37,290 nt of DNA from Thermoplasmatota archaeon (GTDB lineage Archaea; Thermoplasmatota; Thermoplasmata; Thermoplasmatales; Thermoplasmataceae). Positions 22,507 through 27,883 of the stretch are shown in pieces. Under the pieces are notes generated by a model that was not told where the DNA came from, searched no databases, and saw only the letters and a list, made by a program, of their open reading frames with translations. The stretch spans positions 1-37,290 of the forward strand of contig JAMCPQ010000010.1 in the NCBI GenBank assembly GCA_023379825.1. Direction: 5' to 3'. Each line of letters begins with the position of its first letter. Positions within the stretch are counted from its first letter, which is position 1. A program made the position numbers and the translations under genes.

Positions 22507-22929
22507 ATGAAAAGCTCCAGCAATATTCCTGAACTTGTGAAGATTCAGGAAGCGGTAATCAATGAATACATGGAGATGAAGGAGAAAACCTCCATGCAGA
22601 ACATTGTATTCTTCCTGGACTCCTTCATCAGAGAGCATGAGGAGATCATAAGAAGCGCAAAGGCCGGGTTGTTGAAAGGTACCTCCGGGAAACCGGCTAT
22701 AAAGCATCTTGAAGTTACTGGGCATCTGAATGAGCAGGAGAAAATAGACGTGAACAGCCTGCAGAGTGTGCTTCTGCACATATGCAAAAAGGAAGAGGCT
22801 GCGATGAATCAGATTAAAGTTATAGCGGACCCCGGTAAAACCGTCGCCCCTTATCTGGAATGGCAGGAAAGGATACATGAGGAAGCGGATAACCTCTATC
22901 ATAGATTCATAGAGACGGCAGCCCTCTGA
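22507..22929 (+). CDS. Small helical protein, possibly ferritin-like
   Basis: The 140 residues are predicted to be four amphipathic helices: about 8-27, 28-54, 77-106 and 113-137. Acidic and His residues cluster in helix 2 (REHEEI, 42-47), helix 3 (HICKKEEAAM, 91-100) and helix 4 (E121-x-x-H124 in QERIHEEADNL), which recalls ferritin-like or hemerythrin-like metal-binding bundles. Only helix 4 has a clean E-x-x-H, so a dinuclear iron site cannot be asserted. The start ATG at 22507 is about 28 nt after a CTTTAATAG box (22475-22483). It is divergent from valS and 37 nt before dtdA. Function is unknown. Confidence 0.5.
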   Translation: MKSSSNIPELVKIQEAVINEYMEMKEKTSMQNIVFFLDSFIREHEEIIRSAKAGLLKGTSGKPAIKHLEVTGHLNEQEKIDVNSLQSVLLHICKKEEAAMNQIKVIADPGKTVAPYLEWQERIHEEADNLYHRFIETAAL

Positions 22930-22966: not shown

Positions 22967-23758
22967 ATGCATCTCATAGTTGCCTCAAGAGATGATGAGG
23001 CCAGTACTTCTATGGCTGAATATTTCATAGAGAACGGACCGTTCAGGGAATTCTCCGGAGATATCTATAAATCAGGAGATAAGGTGCTTGCATTCATAGG
23101 GAAGAAGCACCTCTACTGGGAAGGTCCAGAGGAGTTGGAGAAAAATTCAGGAATGAGTTTTTCGGATATTATTTTCCTCTCCAGACACTCATCAGCAGCC
23201 GATATAAAATCTGTGACTACCCACCCGACCGGCAACTTCAGAAACTCAGCGGATCTGGGAGGTGAGCCAAGGAGGATCAGCACGTCTTATCCGGAAATGA
23301 TGACTGCCTATCTGCGATATCTGAAAACCAGGATAGAGATTCCCGGAGTTGAAGTTACATTCGAGGCAACGCATCATGGCCCTCTAATTGACATACCAAA
23401 CTTTTATTTTGAGATTGGAACGACCAGGGAGCAGTGGAAAGACACAGAAATACTGGAAGCCTGTCTGGATACTGTTAAAAAGGTCTCACCCGGTAAAGGG
23501 GATAACTTTGTAGGAGTAGGTGGAGGCCATTACATGACGAAGGTGACTGAGTACGCAGTCAACAATGAGGTCAACATAGGTCACATGATTTCAAAGCACA
23601 GCCTTACAGAAATAGATCATGAAATGGTCCGCATGGCTATTGAAAAGACACCTGAATGCAGGGGGTTCATTGTGGACAGAAAGGGGGTTAAGTCAAACGC
23701 TAAATCCATTATAGACTCTATTGTAGACAGCGACTCACTGGAAAAAATAGTTGTATAG
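22967..23758 (+). CDS. dtdA: D-aminoacyl-tRNA deacylase, archaeal/plant type (GEK1)
   Basis: The 263-residue enzyme hydrolyses the ester bond between a D-amino acid and tRNA, recycling mischarged tRNA. Motifs of the DtdA family are all present: FLSRHSSAADIKSVTTHPTGNF, the EATHHGPLIDIPNFYFEIGTT block, and VGVGGGHYMTKVTE with the conserved Gly-Gly-Gly-His. The His residues in HHGP and GGGHY probably bind the catalytic zinc. Length matches the family. The ATG at 22967 lies about 27 nt after an ATATTATC box, in keeping with leaderless initiation. Its closest downstream neighbours are the PLP/DUF1611/PP-loop operon, which has its own promoter. Confidence 0.95.
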   Translation: MHLIVASRDDEASTSMAEYFIENGPFREFSGDIYKSGDKVLAFIGKKHLYWEGPEELEKNSGMSFSDIIFLSRHSSAADIKSVTTHPTGNFRNSADLGGEPRRISTSYPEMMTAYLRYLKTRIEIPGVEVTFEATHHGPLIDIPNFYFEIGTTREQWKDTEILEACLDTVKKVSPGKGDNFVGVGGGHYMTKVTEYAVNNEVNIGHMISKHSLTEIDHEMVRMAIEKTPECRGFIVDRKGVKSNAKSIIDSIVDSDSLEKIVV

Positions 23759-23884
23759 TATCAAATTTTGCAGATATATTAAATGTAAAATACTGAAGTT
23801 TGTATATTATTATATATATGGTGGCGGACACCGGGAATTACGGCTTTACATCGATGTGAAATTCTGAATTATCCTATGTCAATC
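23759..23884. other. AT-rich gap after dtdA with repeat copy 3
   Basis: The region carries several TATA-like runs (GATATATTAAATG, TATTATATATATG) and a copy of the GGTGGCGGACA motif. A 13-codon frame from the ATG at 23818 is too short to credit. No structured RNA was recognised. Confidence 0.4.
23820..23830 (+). repeat. Copy 3 of intergenic motif GGTGG[A/C]CGGACA
   Basis: GGTGGCGGACA is shared with the copies at 17920 and 18031. The flanks differ, so the similarity is confined to about a dozen bases. Confidence 0.35.
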
Positions 23885-23914
23885 TTTAAATAGGTATGAG
23901 TGCTATCAGTACTC
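23885..23914 (+). promoter_or_regulatory. Promoter and palindromic operator of the PLP-DUF1611-PP-loop operon
   Basis: The TATA box TTTAAATA (23885-23892) predicts a start near 23915. Between them lies an inverted repeat GAGTGCT (23898-23904), ATC, AGTACTC (23908-23914), with seven paired positions including one G-T. This is where archaeal repressors block polymerase. A second repeat, TCAGG-CTCAGA-CCTGA (23917-23932), follows at the start of the leader. Confidence 0.5.
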
Positions 23915-23941
23915 AATCAGGCTCAGACCTGAGTGAAAACA

Positions 23942-24913
23942 ATGGAAGAGATGGACGGAGAGGAAGAACCACCTGATAAGACGCCATTTTTCAGAGCAAA
24001 GAATCTGGAAAAAACCCTCCGGCTCAAGAAGATTTTTATCAAGTTTGAAGGGGCTGGCATCACAGGTACACAGAAGGACAGGATATCAAAGCATCATGTA
24101 ATAAGGGCCAAGGATCTTGGTTATGATACAATTTCCCTTGCGACATGCGGAAACTATGGGGCGTCAATATCCCATTTCGCTAATATTTATGGACTTAAGT
24201 CCGTAATTGCTGTTCCTGAACAGTATTCTGGCGAAAGAAACGCTGAGATGGAGGCAAATGGTGCCAGGATTCTGAAGGTGGAATCCAGGTATGAAGATCT
24301 GGTTGAGATGATGAGGGGGCGTTCCAGAGAGGAATCATGGTATGACTCCAGCCCTGGCTCCGAAAATTCAGAGGTTGACTTCGTAGGATACAGTTCAATT
24401 GCCTATGAGATTGTCTCACAGCTGGGAAGAAGCCCGGCTTATGTTGCGGTTCCTGTGGGAAACGGGACAACACTTGCCGGTATTTATAACGGATTCAGAA
24501 ACATGCGTGCAAGAGGGGTTATAAAGAGGATACCTGTTTTCATAGGCTCAAGCACTCCAAACGGGAATCCGGTCGTTGAATCATGGAAGACGGGAAGAAG
24601 AACCATCATGGAACTTGATCCGGCAAAGATTGTTGAGACTCCCGAATCAGAACCACTGGTAGCTTACCGTTCATATGACGGACAGAGGGCCCTGGATTCA
24701 ATATACGAATCAAAAGGGGTTGCAGAATACGTATCCGATTTTGATATGATCAGGTATGCAAATATGCTGGAAAAGACCGAGATGCTTTCTGTTCTTCCTG
24801 CATCAGCTTCTGCTCTTGCAGCGGCCCACAAAGTCATTCCTGGTAACGGAGATTCTGAAAAGGATATTGTCGTTGTTATAACAGGAAGGTCAAGGAAATG
24901 GACAATGCAGTAG
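23942..24913 (+). CDS. PLP-dependent enzyme, threonine synthase-like (fold type II)
   Basis: The protein (323 residues from ATG 23942) belongs to the tryptophan synthase beta/threonine synthase/cysteine synthase fold. The Schiff-base lysine is Lys45 in EGAGITGTQKDRISK. The substrate loop reads ATCGNYGAS, where threonine synthases usually have S-x-G-N-x-x-A-S, and the phosphate-binding loop is PVGNGTTLAG (about 171-180). It is shorter than canonical threonine synthase (about 350-400), and the Cys in the CGN loop is unusual. It overlaps the DUF1611 gene by 16 nt, so the true reaction may concern a D-amino acid or an activated amino acid rather than threonine formation. ATG 23942 is preferred over GTG 23933 because GAGTGA, 5 nt upstream, can serve as a ribosome-binding site. 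Confidence 0.78.
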   Translation: MEEMDGEEEPPDKTPFFRAKNLEKTLRLKKIFIKFEGAGITGTQKDRISKHHVIRAKDLGYDTISLATCGNYGASISHFANIYGLKSVIAVPEQYSGERNAEMEANGARILKVESRYEDLVEMMRGRSREESWYDSSPGSENSEVDFVGYSSIAYEIVSQLGRSPAYVAVPVGNGTTLAGIYNGFRNMRARGVIKRIPVFIGSSTPNGNPVVESWKTGRRTIMELDPAKIVETPESEPLVAYRSYDGQRALDSIYESKGVAEYVSDFDMIRYANMLEKTEMLSVLPASASALAAAHKVIPGNGDSEKDIVVVITGRSRKWTMQ

Positions 24914-25938
24914 TTCTGGCAGAAGGTGTACTTGGAAGCACCTATGGTAAAACAGCCAATGGGCTTGTCAGGTTCACAAAGAGATACAATGTGAAGGCGG
25001 TAATCGATTCAAAGAAAGCTGGCATGGACGCGGGCCAGGTTGTAGAGGGGAAGAGCAGGGGGATTCCAGTTGTAGAGAACCTGAGCGATTCCCTGAAGTT
25101 CGGCGTGAGCACTCTTGTAGTGGGAATTGCCACAGATGGAGGTTACCTTCCGGATGAATACAGGGGAGTAATATCTGAAGCCCTTCACAATGGATTGAAT
25201 GTGGTGAGCGGATTACATGAGTTCATCTCAGATGACCCTGAGTTCTACGAACTTGCCCGTAAACATGGTGTTAGGATCATAGATGTACGGAAGATGTTCA
25301 GGGACATGAAAATGCCTTTCACCGGGAGGATCAGAGAGGTAAAATCATCAAGGATAGCGGTTCTCGGAACAGACAGTGCCATAGGCAAAAGAACCACAAC
25401 TGTTGTACTGACAAACAGCATGAGAAAGGCAGGGGACAAATCCTGTATGATTGGCACGGGCCAGACTGCGTGGATGCAGGGGATAGAGCACACTGTTGTT
25501 GTCGATTCCATGATAAATGATTTCATTCCGGGCAATCTGGAATGGAACACACTGAGGGCCTGGGATATGGAGGCTCCAGATATAATGTTCATTGAGGGGC
25601 AGGGTTCTGTTCTTCATCCAGCATATCCTGGGAGCTTCGAGATCATAGGTGCCTGCCGCCCCACCGGAATAATTCTGCAGCATGCCCCCAAAAGGAAATT
25701 CTTCGACGGGTTCGAGGATTTCAGGATCCCCCCTCTTGAGAAGTACATAAAGATACTGGAGCTTCTTTCCGGCTCACCTGTCATAGCCATATCTGTTAAC
25801 AGGGAGAACATGTCTGATGAAGAGGTCAGGGATGCCGTCAGTAATCTGGAGTCACAGTATGGCATTCCTGCATTTGACCCACTTTCTGATGATGTTGAAA
25901 GAGTTTCCAGAATAATCAGGGAAGTTGCAATGCAATGA
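24898..25938 (+). CDS. DUF1611 family protein (DgcN-like)
   Basis: The 346-residue protein has an N-terminal Rossmann-like domain (about 1-145, with VVGIATDGGYLPDEYR) and a C-terminal P-loop domain with GTDSAIGKRTTT (157-168, Lys164) followed by IGTGQTAWMQG and IEGQGSVLHPAYPGS. These are the hallmarks of DUF1611. The characterised member DgcN takes part in D-glutamate catabolism by forming an N-acyl-D-glutamate, normally next to an enolase-superfamily racemase (DgcA). No such racemase adjoins here. Instead the partners are a PLP enzyme and a PP-loop ATPase. It begins inside the end of the PLP gene after a GGAAGGTC ribosome-binding site, and its end overlaps the next start by ATGA. A D-glutamate-related role is plausible but unproven. 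Confidence 0.8.
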   Translation: MDNAVVLAEGVLGSTYGKTANGLVRFTKRYNVKAVIDSKKAGMDAGQVVEGKSRGIPVVENLSDSLKFGVSTLVVGIATDGGYLPDEYRGVISEALHNGLNVVSGLHEFISDDPEFYELARKHGVRIIDVRKMFRDMKMPFTGRIREVKSSRIAVLGTDSAIGKRTTTVVLTNSMRKAGDKSCMIGTGQTAWMQGIEHTVVVDSMINDFIPGNLEWNTLRAWDMEAPDIMFIEGQGSVLHPAYPGSFEIIGACRPTGIILQHAPKRKFFDGFEDFRIPPLEKYIKILELLSGSPVIAISVNRENMSDEEVRDAVSNLESQYGIPAFDPLSDDVERVSRIIREVAMQ

Positions 25939-27353
25939 TTCCCAGCTTTATTGAGAGAATCACAACATTCCGCAATATCTCGGTAGGGATCGAAAAGATA
26001 GAGAAAAGACGGATAACAGGTAAAATTACTGTTGAGGACGATGAAGGTTCCCACAGTTTCCGTCTGATGTTCACATATTTTGAAGACATCAGCGTGGACG
26101 AGAACCTGGCCGGCCTTATACTTACAATGCCGGCAATAAACTTCACACTCTTTTCCAAACGTCTTACGCTCAATTTTCCCGTCTCTTCCCAGGATAAGGA
26201 TATAATCAGTGAATGGGTCAGAATAAACAACAGGGAGGTCTTTGTTAACAGGCTGTGCCTGAGAAGACATGAATTCTTCCTCAGGGAATACCTTCCTTCG
26301 GAATCGGAGATCACAGCGGAGAATTCTGAAGGATGCACAGAAATCATTACTCCGCAGATGATTACAAATAGACAGGGGGTTCAGATGAATACTGGCAGGG
26401 TGGCAATTCTATCATCCGGTGGCAAGGAGAGCCTTCTGACCTCAGGAATTCTTACAGAAGCTGGTGCGGAAGTGCATCATATATTCATAAACGAATCAGG
26501 GGGGCACTGGAACACAGCCAGGACCTCTTTTGACCATTTTACCTCGACAGGAAGGGAAGTTGAAAAGATCTGGACAAATGTGGACAGATTCTACCATTTC
26601 TGTCTTGACCTTCTTAAGCCTCTGAACAGGTCTGTCTCCGAGAAATGGGCGGACGACTACCCTGTCCAGCTGTTTATATTTCCGGTATATATTTTCGCAG
26701 CAATACCTCTGCTTATCAAGTACCAGGTGGGCAATCTGGTCATGGGGGACGAATTTGACGATCCCTTAGAGTTTTTTCCCTACCATGGGTTGAAGCACTA
26801 TTATGGGATTTATGATCAGACATCTGATTTCAACCAGTCAATTACAGAATATCTGAAGAGGTCAGGATTGAACATATCTGTATGGTCAGCAGTATATCCC
26901 ATAAACGGGTCACTTGAGGAGAAAATTCTGATACACAGATATCCTGAACTGTTCCGTACACAGAGATCATGCCACTCATGCCGCAATATATCAGGTAAAG
27001 TTGTTCCCTGTGGAAAGTGTTCAAAATGTCTGGGTATTCTGCTTTTCATTCTTGCTGCAGGGGGTAACCCTGAGGAAGCCGGCTACACATCTGATTCAAT
27101 ATTACATCTGGAAGAGCGCCTTGACAGGACAAGAATGAGGCTCGATCCAGATGAACTCAACCTGATGAGAAAAAGGGTTCGAGGTGAGGGGAGCGGAGCG
27201 GAAAGCCATGTTGATATGATCCATATTCTGCCGGATGAGCAATTTGAAGGAAGCAGGATACCTGAGCAATTCAGGGATAAAATCCTGCACATATTCAGCC
27301 AGTATGCCTCAGGGGTCTGTCGTGTTGAAGGAAATGCCTGGGTCAAAGTCTAA
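25935..27353 (+). CDS. PP-loop (N-type ATP pyrophosphatase) protein with Cys cluster
   Basis: The 472-residue protein has an N-terminal domain of unknown type (1-150), then a PP-loop ATPase domain beginning VAILSSGGKESLLTSGIL (about 156-173), with the adenylating SGGKES signature. A cysteine set, Cys346, Cys349, Cys359, Cys362 and Cys365 (SCHSC and CGKCSKC), resembles the zinc site of QueC-type enzymes. PP-loop enzymes activate a carboxylate or similar group as an adenylate. MurL, which epimerises a terminal glutamate at the cost of ATP to AMP, is a possible relative by size and reaction type. That link is inference. The start overlaps the DUF1611 stop by 4 nt. Its 3' end overlaps the convergent tsr3 by 4 nt. 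This is the last gene of the operon. Confidence 0.7.
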   Translation: MIPSFIERITTFRNISVGIEKIEKRRITGKITVEDDEGSHSFRLMFTYFEDISVDENLAGLILTMPAINFTLFSKRLTLNFPVSSQDKDIISEWVRINNREVFVNRLCLRRHEFFLREYLPSESEITAENSEGCTEIITPQMITNRQGVQMNTGRVAILSSGGKESLLTSGILTEAGAEVHHIFINESGGHWNTARTSFDHFTSTGREVEKIWTNVDRFYHFCLDLLKPLNRSVSEKWADDYPVQLFIFPVYIFAAIPLLIKYQVGNLVMGDEFDDPLEFFPYHGLKHYYGIYDQTSDFNQSITEYLKRSGLNISVWSAVYPINGSLEEKILIHRYPELFRTQRSCHSCRNISGKVVPCGKCSKCLGILLFILAAGGNPEEAGYTSDSILHLEERLDRTRMRLDPDELNLMRKRVRGEGSGAESHVDMIHILPDEQFEGSRIPEQFRDKILHIFSQYASGVCRVEGNAWVKV

Positions 27354-27883
27354 AAGAACTGTTTTTCAGCTTCCTCCATATCCTCCTGGCTCAGGCATCT
27401 CGAGTATTCTTTCAGTGGTTCCATGTTCAATTCATAAAACACAGGCCCCCACTTGAATTTGTTCAGTAACTCTGAACCGAACTCATTGAAGCCGGTTATA
27501 AAAAGTGCAGCTGCAACAGCTTCCACCGAGGAAAGCCTGAATGGTTTCCCATAATTAACTGGATTGGCCGCGAGAAGTTCAGGGAGCCTCACTCCCCTTC
27601 TGAGCCTGATCTCTTTCAGCGTTTCAGACCTGTTCCATGACCCTTCCAGAACCCCAATTCCGTGAATGCTGATCTCCTTGCGCATATTAGGAAGAAGCAT
27701 CGCTGAAGAATCAGGCACAAGCGCAAGGGTTCTGTTCATTTTCTGAAGGGGGACCGATCTTGCCAGCCCGAATCTCTCTAACTTTCTCATGGTGCTCTTC
27801 CTGGGATCATCCTGGTGCATGTAATAGAAAAGAACTGCGGGTCTGGCCCTCATTTCTGCATCTTCATCGGAAGGAGCTGGCAC
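27350..27883 (-). CDS. tsr3: 16S rRNA aminocarboxypropyltransferase, Tsr3 family
   Basis: The 177-residue SPOUT-related enzyme adds the 3-amino-3-carboxypropyl group of SAM to a hypermodified uridine in small-subunit rRNA. Family blocks are clear: YMHQDDPRKSTMRKLERFGLA, then LLPNMRKEI, GVLEGSWNR, and RLPELLAANPVNYGKPFRLSSVEA in the SAM-binding region, ending with NKFKWGPVFYELN. The length is typical. The GTG start at 27883 is 25 nt from a minus-strand TATA box (27904-27911). Family alignment would also allow the internal ATG at residue 11 (27853). It is divergent from pyrG and converges on the PP-loop gene. Confidence 0.93.
   Translation of the reverse strand: MPAPSDEDAEMRARPAVLFYYMHQDDPRKSTMRKLERFGLARSVPLQKMNRTLALVPDSSAMLLPNMRKEISIHGIGVLEGSWNRSETLKEIRLRRGVRLPELLAANPVNYGKPFRLSSVEAVAAALFITGFNEFGSELLNKFKWGPVFYELNMEPLKEYSRCLSQEDMEEAEKQFF

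Follow-up and report, generated by a model that had tools for sequence, protein, structure and literature searches.

The locus and its genes

The subject of this work is a set of three overlapping genes, called here the trio, in contig JAMCPQ010000010.1 of a Thermoplasmatota archaeon (GenBank assembly GCA_023379825.1, a genome bin that is 82% complete). The stretch of DNA analysed is 37,290 nucleotides (nt) long and is referred to as the window. The trio encodes a fold-type-II pyridoxal 5′-phosphate (PLP) enzyme, a DUF1611 protein and a PP-loop protein, and it lies directly downstream of the gene for a D-aminoacyl-tRNA deacylase, DtdA (Table 1). The PLP and DUF1611 genes overlap by 16 nt and the DUF1611 and PP-loop genes by 4 nt; a gap of 174 nt, containing the TATA-like TTTAAATA, separates DtdA from the PLP gene. 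We conclude that the trio is a so far uncharacterised archaeal operon, whose product or substrate is probably a modified amino acid, possibly in mirror-image form.

An earlier reading of the window from its letters (the sequence-only reading) had proposed an uncharacterised route for making or degrading a D-amino acid. Open reading frame (ORF) coordinates and profile matches place the four genes and the tight overlaps of the trio as it had stated. Its descriptions of the single proteins also held: the ATCGN loop is present in the PLP enzyme (PF00291, E 5.9e-54), the zinc-like cysteine set of the PP-loop protein is invariant in the family alignment described below, and the second protein belongs to the DUF1611 family of DgcN, with both of its Pfam domains passing their gathering scores.

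Table 1. Genes and a candidate promoter element at the locus in the window.
Feature	Positions	Strand or orientation	Basis and remarks
DtdA, D-aminoacyl-tRNA deacylase	22967-23758	+	PF04414 E 3.9e-61, 206.6 bits (gathering score 33.6)
TTTAAATA, possible archaeal TATA box of the trio	23885-23892	+	identified by eye (candidate)
Fold-type-II PLP enzyme, NF004996/PRK06381 subfamily	23933-24913	+	start GTG 23933 or ATG 23942; NF004996 413.8 bits; TCGN loop
DUF1611 protein, DgcN relative	24898-25938	+	PF07755 and PF17396 above gathering scores
PP-loop protein, QueC fold, zinc-type cysteine set	25935-27353	+	AlphaFold model, fold matches, motif test; candidate carboxylate-adenylating epimerase or amide synthase
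Tsr3-type gene (DUF367)	27350-27883	converges on the PP-loop gene, stops overlap by 4 nt	NF002621 164.6 bits (cut-off 152)

Conservation of the trio among archaea

The PP-loop gene occurs in 56 of the 292 genomes of the phylum: a profile search gave 57 matches, from which one distant cousin (G044, E 5.9e-13) was dropped. A genome collection added 37 loci, among them ones from bins of Bathyarchaeota, MCG-6 and Thermofilaceae. The nearest named relative of the window protein, with 79% identity, is that of Thermoplasmatales archaeon UBA447. In all, 87 PP-loop loci were assembled, with some redundancy (one genome accounts for both L030 and L111 and apparently another for both L060 and L072, and L013 and L039 are near-identical). 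Loci with short flanks were excluded from every synteny count, and the trio was counted in the 49 loci that have 2600 nt or more upstream of the PP-loop gene.

The full trio is present on one strand in 42 of these 49 loci, far beyond chance, and is therefore a real unit; the DUF1611 gene lies at most 300 nt upstream of the PP-loop gene in 44. The full adjacent set is missing from seven loci (L060, L072, L067, L075, L084, L111 and L079), in the last of which the PLP and DUF1611 genes are both upstream, at a greater distance. The three genes almost certainly form one co-inherited unit or operon, and the gene-neighbourhood survey that the sequence-only reading had suggested thus revealed a conserved archaeal arrangement. 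At the level of genomes, the NF004996 subfamily of the PLP enzyme scores above its cut-off in 55 of the 292, and 53 of these also carry the PP-loop gene (in one of them, G113, on a separate contig); DUF1611 is found in 55 of the 56 genomes with the PP-loop gene. Across 45 loci, the pairwise distances of the three trio proteins are correlated, with r between 0.80 and 0.93 (shared ancestry not removed). A literature search returned no description of a trio of PLP, DUF1611 and PP-loop genes, and to the extent of that search the arrangement is new in print.

Two loci from genome G027 show that the PP-loop gene can be present twice, once within a trio (L076) and once where neither a PLP nor a DUF1611 gene was found next to it (L075). 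In L060/L072, the PP-loop gene stands with genes for a GNAT acetyltransferase, an M14-like peptidase and an epimerase; DUF1611 and the trio PLP gene are both missing from the vicinity, and residues 1 to 57 of the window PP-loop protein are unmatched there.

The sequence-only reading had taken DtdA, the immediate neighbour in the window, as a sign of a D-amino-acid pathway. The adjacency stands, and the sign does not: of the 45 PP-loop loci with 3.5 kb upstream, 20 have DtdA upstream in the same orientation, and all 20 belong to the window's own family in the DUF1611 tree, while 24 of the 25 loci without upstream DtdA fall outside that family. In four loci of the genus g4 (L012 and L015 to L017), DtdA lies beyond the PP-loop gene, on the opposite strand. 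As the upstream adjacency is confined to the window's family among these 45 loci, we have dropped DtdA as evidence for the pathway and treat it as a neighbour that is probably outside the operon.

The PP-loop protein has a QueC-type fold and is not a canonical QueC

The PP-loop protein of the window has no Pfam match at E 1, and its sole NCBIfam match is NF010367 at E 0.18. We have aligned it with 43 relatives (44 members in all). The PP-loop signature reads SGGKES in the window protein, and SGGx[DE]S is found in 43 of the 44 members. Four cysteines, C346, C359, C362 and C365, are conserved throughout, and the other invariant residues include S161, G163, K164, S166, E187-S188-G189, H191-W192, E273, D275 and D294-Q295.

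An AlphaFold model of the protein, built from 37 sequences, has a mean predicted local distance difference test (pLDDT) score of 92.6. Among solved structures compared by VIA-align, the best match is QatC (Z 15.7 over 308 residues, root-mean-square deviation 4.1), which is matched over model residues 11-417 and thus includes the N-terminal domain; QueC (Z 13.9 for 2pg3, and 13.6) and Cap9 (Z 13.3) follow, and the next family is at 9.8. Foldseek also placed QatC first (E 2.4e-5, with a TM-score of only 0.36 of the query) and QueC among the leading matches, the best rows including YcfA and MJ0690 as well. MurL appears in neither list; as no MurL structure is known to be among those compared, this carries no weight. 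A PDB search with the PP-loop profile gave a best E of 0.13, covering the PP-loop stretch alone. Since QatC, QueC and Cap9 are well above the next family, we are confident that the protein, as modelled, has a QueC-type PP-loop fold with a four-cysteine site and an extra N-terminal domain. The sequence-only reading had named clustering with a tRNA- or deazapurine-modifying family as the outcome that would speak against its proposal, and by that measure these nearest folds count against it.

In QueC (PF06508, 7-cyano-7-deazaguanine synthase), the core fold and the order of the four cysteines are common with the PP-loop protein. A profile alignment with four QueC sequences reached 62.4% (E 7e-5), with D294 falling on the aspartate and I292 on the tyrosine of the QueC motif YPDC; roles of these two motif residues in QueC and Cap9 are given in a passage of PMC13279940. 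The canonical signature of QueC is stated in part of PMC13329287 as YxQxHxxE, VPxRN and YPDC. Each of these motifs occurs in none of the 44 members of the PP-loop family, and all three occur in each of four QueC controls, one of which is a separate canonical QueC from the window's own genome. Because the three substrate motifs are absent from the whole family and present in all controls, the PP-loop protein is, as judged by its motifs, not a canonical QueC. The Pfam QueC model matches two of the 44 members (best E 0.057) and leaves the window protein unmatched. The QueC zinc pattern as printed, C(x)8CxxCxxC, found no match in the family or in the four controls and was therefore not used.

QatC, of the qatABCD anti-phage defence system, and Cap9, of type IV CBASS, share with the PP-loop protein the SGG loop and zinc-type cysteines. 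The trio differs from both in that its identified neighbours are amino-acid enzymes, in a survey that was not aimed at a QatB-like partner. The QatC zinc pattern C(x)19CGxCxxRR, as printed in PMC13329287, occurs in none of the 44 members; the test included no QatC control sequence, and the QueC zinc pattern of the same paper failed on the QueC controls.

A possible kinship with MurL

MurL is described, in passages of PMC5808125 and PMC8788868, as a protein without known conserved domains; it needs ATP and Mg and yields AMP (passage of PMC5808125), and it works from L to D only (passage of PMC8788868). Our comparison was made through the NCBIfam model NF041275, which has a cut-off of 700 bits. 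The two are similar in length (447 model positions, 472 amino acids in the window protein), and NF041275 is the NCBIfam model matched by most members of the PP-loop family (13 of 44, best E 5.5e-4). At E 0.01, it reaches only four of the 292 genomes, two of these matches being the PP-loop family or its cousin. The differences lie in the window protein itself, which is unmatched, and in the scores of its relatives, which are far below the cut-off. A kinship of the PP-loop family with MurL is thus suggestive at the level of profile matches: a lead, not a result. Of the comparison with MurL and QueC that the sequence-only reading had called for, one half separates the family from canonical QueC and puts MurL first among the NCBIfam models; the other half leaves the window protein itself without a MurL match.

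A second archaeal PP-loop family is represented by the cousins at L081:437-1852 and L082:2919-4151. They are the nearest cousins of the PP-loop family: an alignment of these two sequences matches the PP-loop profile at 98.9% (E 1.7e-17), a much better value than that of the four QueC sequences, both alignments being small. The MurL model matches L081 at E 4.8e-4 and L082 at E 5e-6. A PDB search with L082 gave no match, and neither did tblastn searches of plasmids with L082 and L067.

The PLP enzyme and the DUF1611 protein

The PLP enzyme of the window exceeds the cut-off of NF004996/PRK06381 (413.8 against 266 bits); this model is named threonine synthase, the name being an annotation. Against TIGR00260 (thrC), it scores 90 bits, below the cut-off of 167.1. 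The scaffold of a fold-type-II PLP enzyme is shared with threonine synthases, whereas the loops differ: all 45 trio PLP enzymes have a TCGN or SCGN loop in place of the STGN of the aligned threonine synthases, and the next loop (SVNP) is also altered. The same genome holds another PLP gene, L130, with a zinc-ribbon start and threonine-synthase-like loops (judged by eye, the sequence being partly masked). The label “threonine synthase” for the trio enzyme therefore appears doubtful.

At L117 (1211-3664), a cousin of the PLP enzyme whose C-terminal part matches GNAT is encoded beside a gene resembling that of ornithine racemase (432 bits against the Orr model, cut-off 480). The same racemase-like neighbour is seen by eye at L116 and L118, and at L118 an ArgE/DapE-type deacylase is added. 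These three loci may represent a further module for amino-acid racemisation in Thermoplasmatota, likewise uncharacterised.

The DUF1611 protein matches PF07755 with 215.5 bits (gathering score 25) and PF17396 with 105.5 bits (gathering score 22.6). Against the DgcN model NF041892, it scores 172.6 bits, short of the cut-off of 480. A tree was built from 84 DUF1611 rows, and the 69 that come from PP-loop loci form one clade in it (support 99/96), apart from the other 15. The motif SA[IV]GKR is present in 45 of 45 trio proteins as compared to three of 21 other DUF1611 ORFs (the 21 including repeated genomes). A passage of PMC12363236 gives DgcN the key role in a pathway by which acidic D-amino acids are racemised. 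A search of the literature by title found nothing on the function of DUF1611.

Amino-acid enzymes around the trio

We have also followed an epimerase of the L-Ala-D/L-Glu or DgcA kind, defined as a match to NF041118 at E 1e-40 or better, none being above the model's own cut-off. It occurs in 35 of the 292 genomes: in 33 of the 82 with a DUF1611 or PP-loop gene, versus two of the 210 others (Fisher p 9e-19, not corrected for phylogeny). Among the former, it is found in 18 of the 26 DUF1611 genomes that lack the PP-loop gene and in 15 of the 56 that carry it (p 5e-4), as if the epimerase and the PP-loop enzyme often replaced one another. The DUF1611 and epimerase genes are direct neighbours by coordinates in eight genomes (G001, G005, G013, G017, G022, G037, G080 and G214). 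Three such neighbourhoods were inspected (L102, L109 and L108, the last with the genes on opposite strands). In L100 and L101, the two genes are about 0.8 kb apart. The sister family f2, with five sampled genomes and no PP-loop gene in them, has DUF1611 in all five and the epimerase in four.

The epimerase also occurs near the PP-loop gene itself, together with an M14-like peptidase, in eight of the 45 loci with 4 kb downstream (apparently seven genomes). The peptidase matches PF00246 at E 8e-4, with 19.5 bits (cut-off 21.6), and its AlphaFold model is poor (pLDDT 50.3). A GNAT acetyltransferase is the downstream neighbour of the PP-loop gene, on the opposite strand, in 20 of the 84 loci with 700 nt downstream. 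This context supports amino-acid chemistry, partly of D-amino acids, for the trio. The likeness to the DgcN–DgcA pathway resides in the family of the DUF1611 protein and in the DgcA-like epimerases of many of the same genomes; the difference is in the separate clade of the PP-associated DUF1611 proteins and in the window's genome, as discussed below.

In the f2 locus L100 (2504-5100), two genes come before that of the DgcA-like epimerase, one for a protein with a weak FtsZ match (44 bits) and one for a methyltransferase-like protein; the f2 loci L101 and L104 show the same arrangement by eye.

Downstream of the trio, the convergent Tsr3-type gene is present in 55 of the 84 PP-loop loci with at least 700 nt downstream. 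Upstream, between ValS and DtdA, the window specifies a 140-amino-acid protein (22507-22929) that Pfam leaves unmatched at E 1 and for which NCBIfam offers only NF011906 (E 0.062); it has a clear relative in L031 only and weak ones in L033, L048, L049 and L051.

The trio in Thermoplasma acidophilum

One of the genomes that carry the trio, G099, encodes a proteasome alpha chain identical to 1pma_A over all 233 residues. 1PMA is the proteasome of Thermoplasma acidophilum, and by this sequence identity G099 is that species. D-amino acids and a PLP-dependent aspartate racemase have reportedly been found in T. acidophilum, according to the title of a paper by Long et al. from 2001 cited in PMC6047364. 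G099 has no match to Ala_racemase_N or Asp_Glu_race at E 0.01, and it has five PALP proteins, the PLP enzyme of the trio among them. The trio is therefore a concrete candidate for the aspartate racemase activity, or for the onward conversion of its product.

Proposed mechanism and alternatives

By analogy, the PP-loop protein is very likely a carboxylate-adenylating enzyme, as QueC works by ATP-dependent steps and an adenylation is also hypothesised for MurL. The substrate of the trio is probably an amino acid or a peptide, and the chances that a D-configuration is involved are close to even. We tentatively propose a module acting on an amino acid or short peptide, in which the amine is protected, the carboxylate is activated at the cost of ATP with epimerisation of the alpha carbon, and a PLP enzyme contributes one step. 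Judging from its relative DgcN, which is named an N-acetyltransferase, and from the context, the DUF1611 protein would modify the amino group and give an N-protected amino acid. The carboxylate of this product would be adenylated by the PP-loop enzyme, as knowledge of the family suggests; the same enzyme might then invert the alpha carbon from L to D in the manner of MurL, a step which the context allows and which, taken by itself, we consider somewhat unlikely. The PLP enzyme could make or consume the free amino acid at one end of the route, to go by its surroundings. We infer the order of the steps, the substrate and the stereochemistry.

Several observations weigh against this proposal. The MurL model finds nothing in the window protein, nor in its own genome at E 10, and it scores weakly in the relatives (18.6 bits for L067 and 25.3 for the cousin L082, of the 700 required). 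Other models reach the PP-loop family too: PRK13795.1-4 matches five of the 44 members (best E 7e-4), PADLOC QueC eight (best E 0.001) and Pfam DUF6395 ten, weakly (best E 0.034). Pfam QueC also matches both cousins, L081 at E 5e-4, as good as its MurL match, and L082 at E 8e-4, so that the bridge to MurL is clear for L082 only. The PP-loop gene is found with no PLP or DUF1611 gene nearby in L067 and L060/L072, alone in L075, and with no adjacent PLP gene in L111 and L084. The nearest PDB relatives of the PLP enzyme are threonine synthases. Finally, the epimerase, at E 1e-40, is not found in the window's genome (82% complete) and occurs in only five of the 29 genomes of the window's family. 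The D-amino-acid or D-glutamyl interpretation of the sequence-only reading is thus partly supported: the link of DUF1611 with the epimerase in the phylum, and the epimerase beside some PP-loop genes, speak for it, and the scarcity of the epimerase in the window's family and the unmatched MurL model speak against it, while the trio with its DtdA neighbour is confirmed as an observation.

The strongest rival is formation of an amide by the PP-loop enzyme. As an amide- or peptide-bond former of the QueC, QatC and Cap9 kind, it would give the trio an amidated or ligated amino-acid derivative as its product, with no epimerisation. We regard this as a distinct possibility, given the fold comparison (Z 13 to 16 against 9.8), the QueC matches of family members and cousins, and the alignment of D294 with the YPDC aspartate. 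It is opposed by the complete absence of the three QueC motifs from the family, by the separate canonical QueC in the same genome, and by the neighbours identified through models, which are amino-acid enzymes; no search was made for QueD or QueE as neighbours. The trio could also be read as a catabolic module like DgcN–DgcA, in which the DUF1611 protein N-acetylates an acidic D-amino acid (D-glutamate or another), the PP-loop enzyme inverts it and the PLP enzyme receives the product. The kinship with DgcN, the eight genomes in which DUF1611 directly adjoins the DgcA-like epimerase and the peptidase beside the PP-loop gene in eight of 45 loci favour such a module. We consider it improbable, as spending ATP to reach an L-amino acid would be wasteful, MurL operates in the opposite direction only (passage of PMC8788868), and the PP-associated DUF1611 proteins form their own clade, with 172.6 of the 480 bits required for DgcN.

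Two further alternatives centre on the PLP enzyme. It may itself be an amino-acid racemase, for instance the aspartate racemase of T. acidophilum, with the other two genes tailoring its product, which is compatible with our proposal. The trio in G099, the lack of matches to the two racemase families there and the five PALP proteins are in keeping with this; yet the racemase could also be one of the four remaining PALP proteins or have another PLP fold, and the nearest solved relatives of the subfamily are threonine synthases, so that we hold it to be still less probable than the catabolic module. These same relatives, and the name and score of NF004996, would suit a PLP enzyme that is simply the cell's threonine synthase with two accidental neighbours. 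This is very improbable: the thrC cut-off is not reached, the STGN and SVNP loops are changed, L130 provides another threonine-synthase-like gene, and threonine synthesis would leave unexplained the PP-loop gene in 53 of the 55 genomes with the PLP subfamily.

Implications

In its widest form, the proposal would make MurL and the archaeal PP-loop family branches of one QueC-type superfamily, and wall-less archaea would use an ATP-driven epimerase, with amine protection by DUF1611 and a PLP enzyme, for a D-amino acid or a small molecule with a D-residue, a candidate source of the D-amino acids of T. acidophilum. We consider this unlikely in its entirety. These archaea are not known to have peptidoglycan, in which they differ from the setting of MurL. 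If true, the proposal would supply MurL with a fold and a class of mechanism, would extend ATP-driven epimerisation beyond cell-wall synthesis to a D-amino-acid route outside peptidoglycan, and would bear on the D-amino acids of archaea that lack it. In a passage of a 2026 survey of the QueC family, three archaeal clusters are left unanalysed, and the PP-loop family could be one of them. Should the enzyme be an amide synthase instead, it would still represent a QueC-fold subfamily that the Pfam QueC model barely detects. With T. acidophilum among the carriers of the trio, the question is open to testing in a cultured organism.

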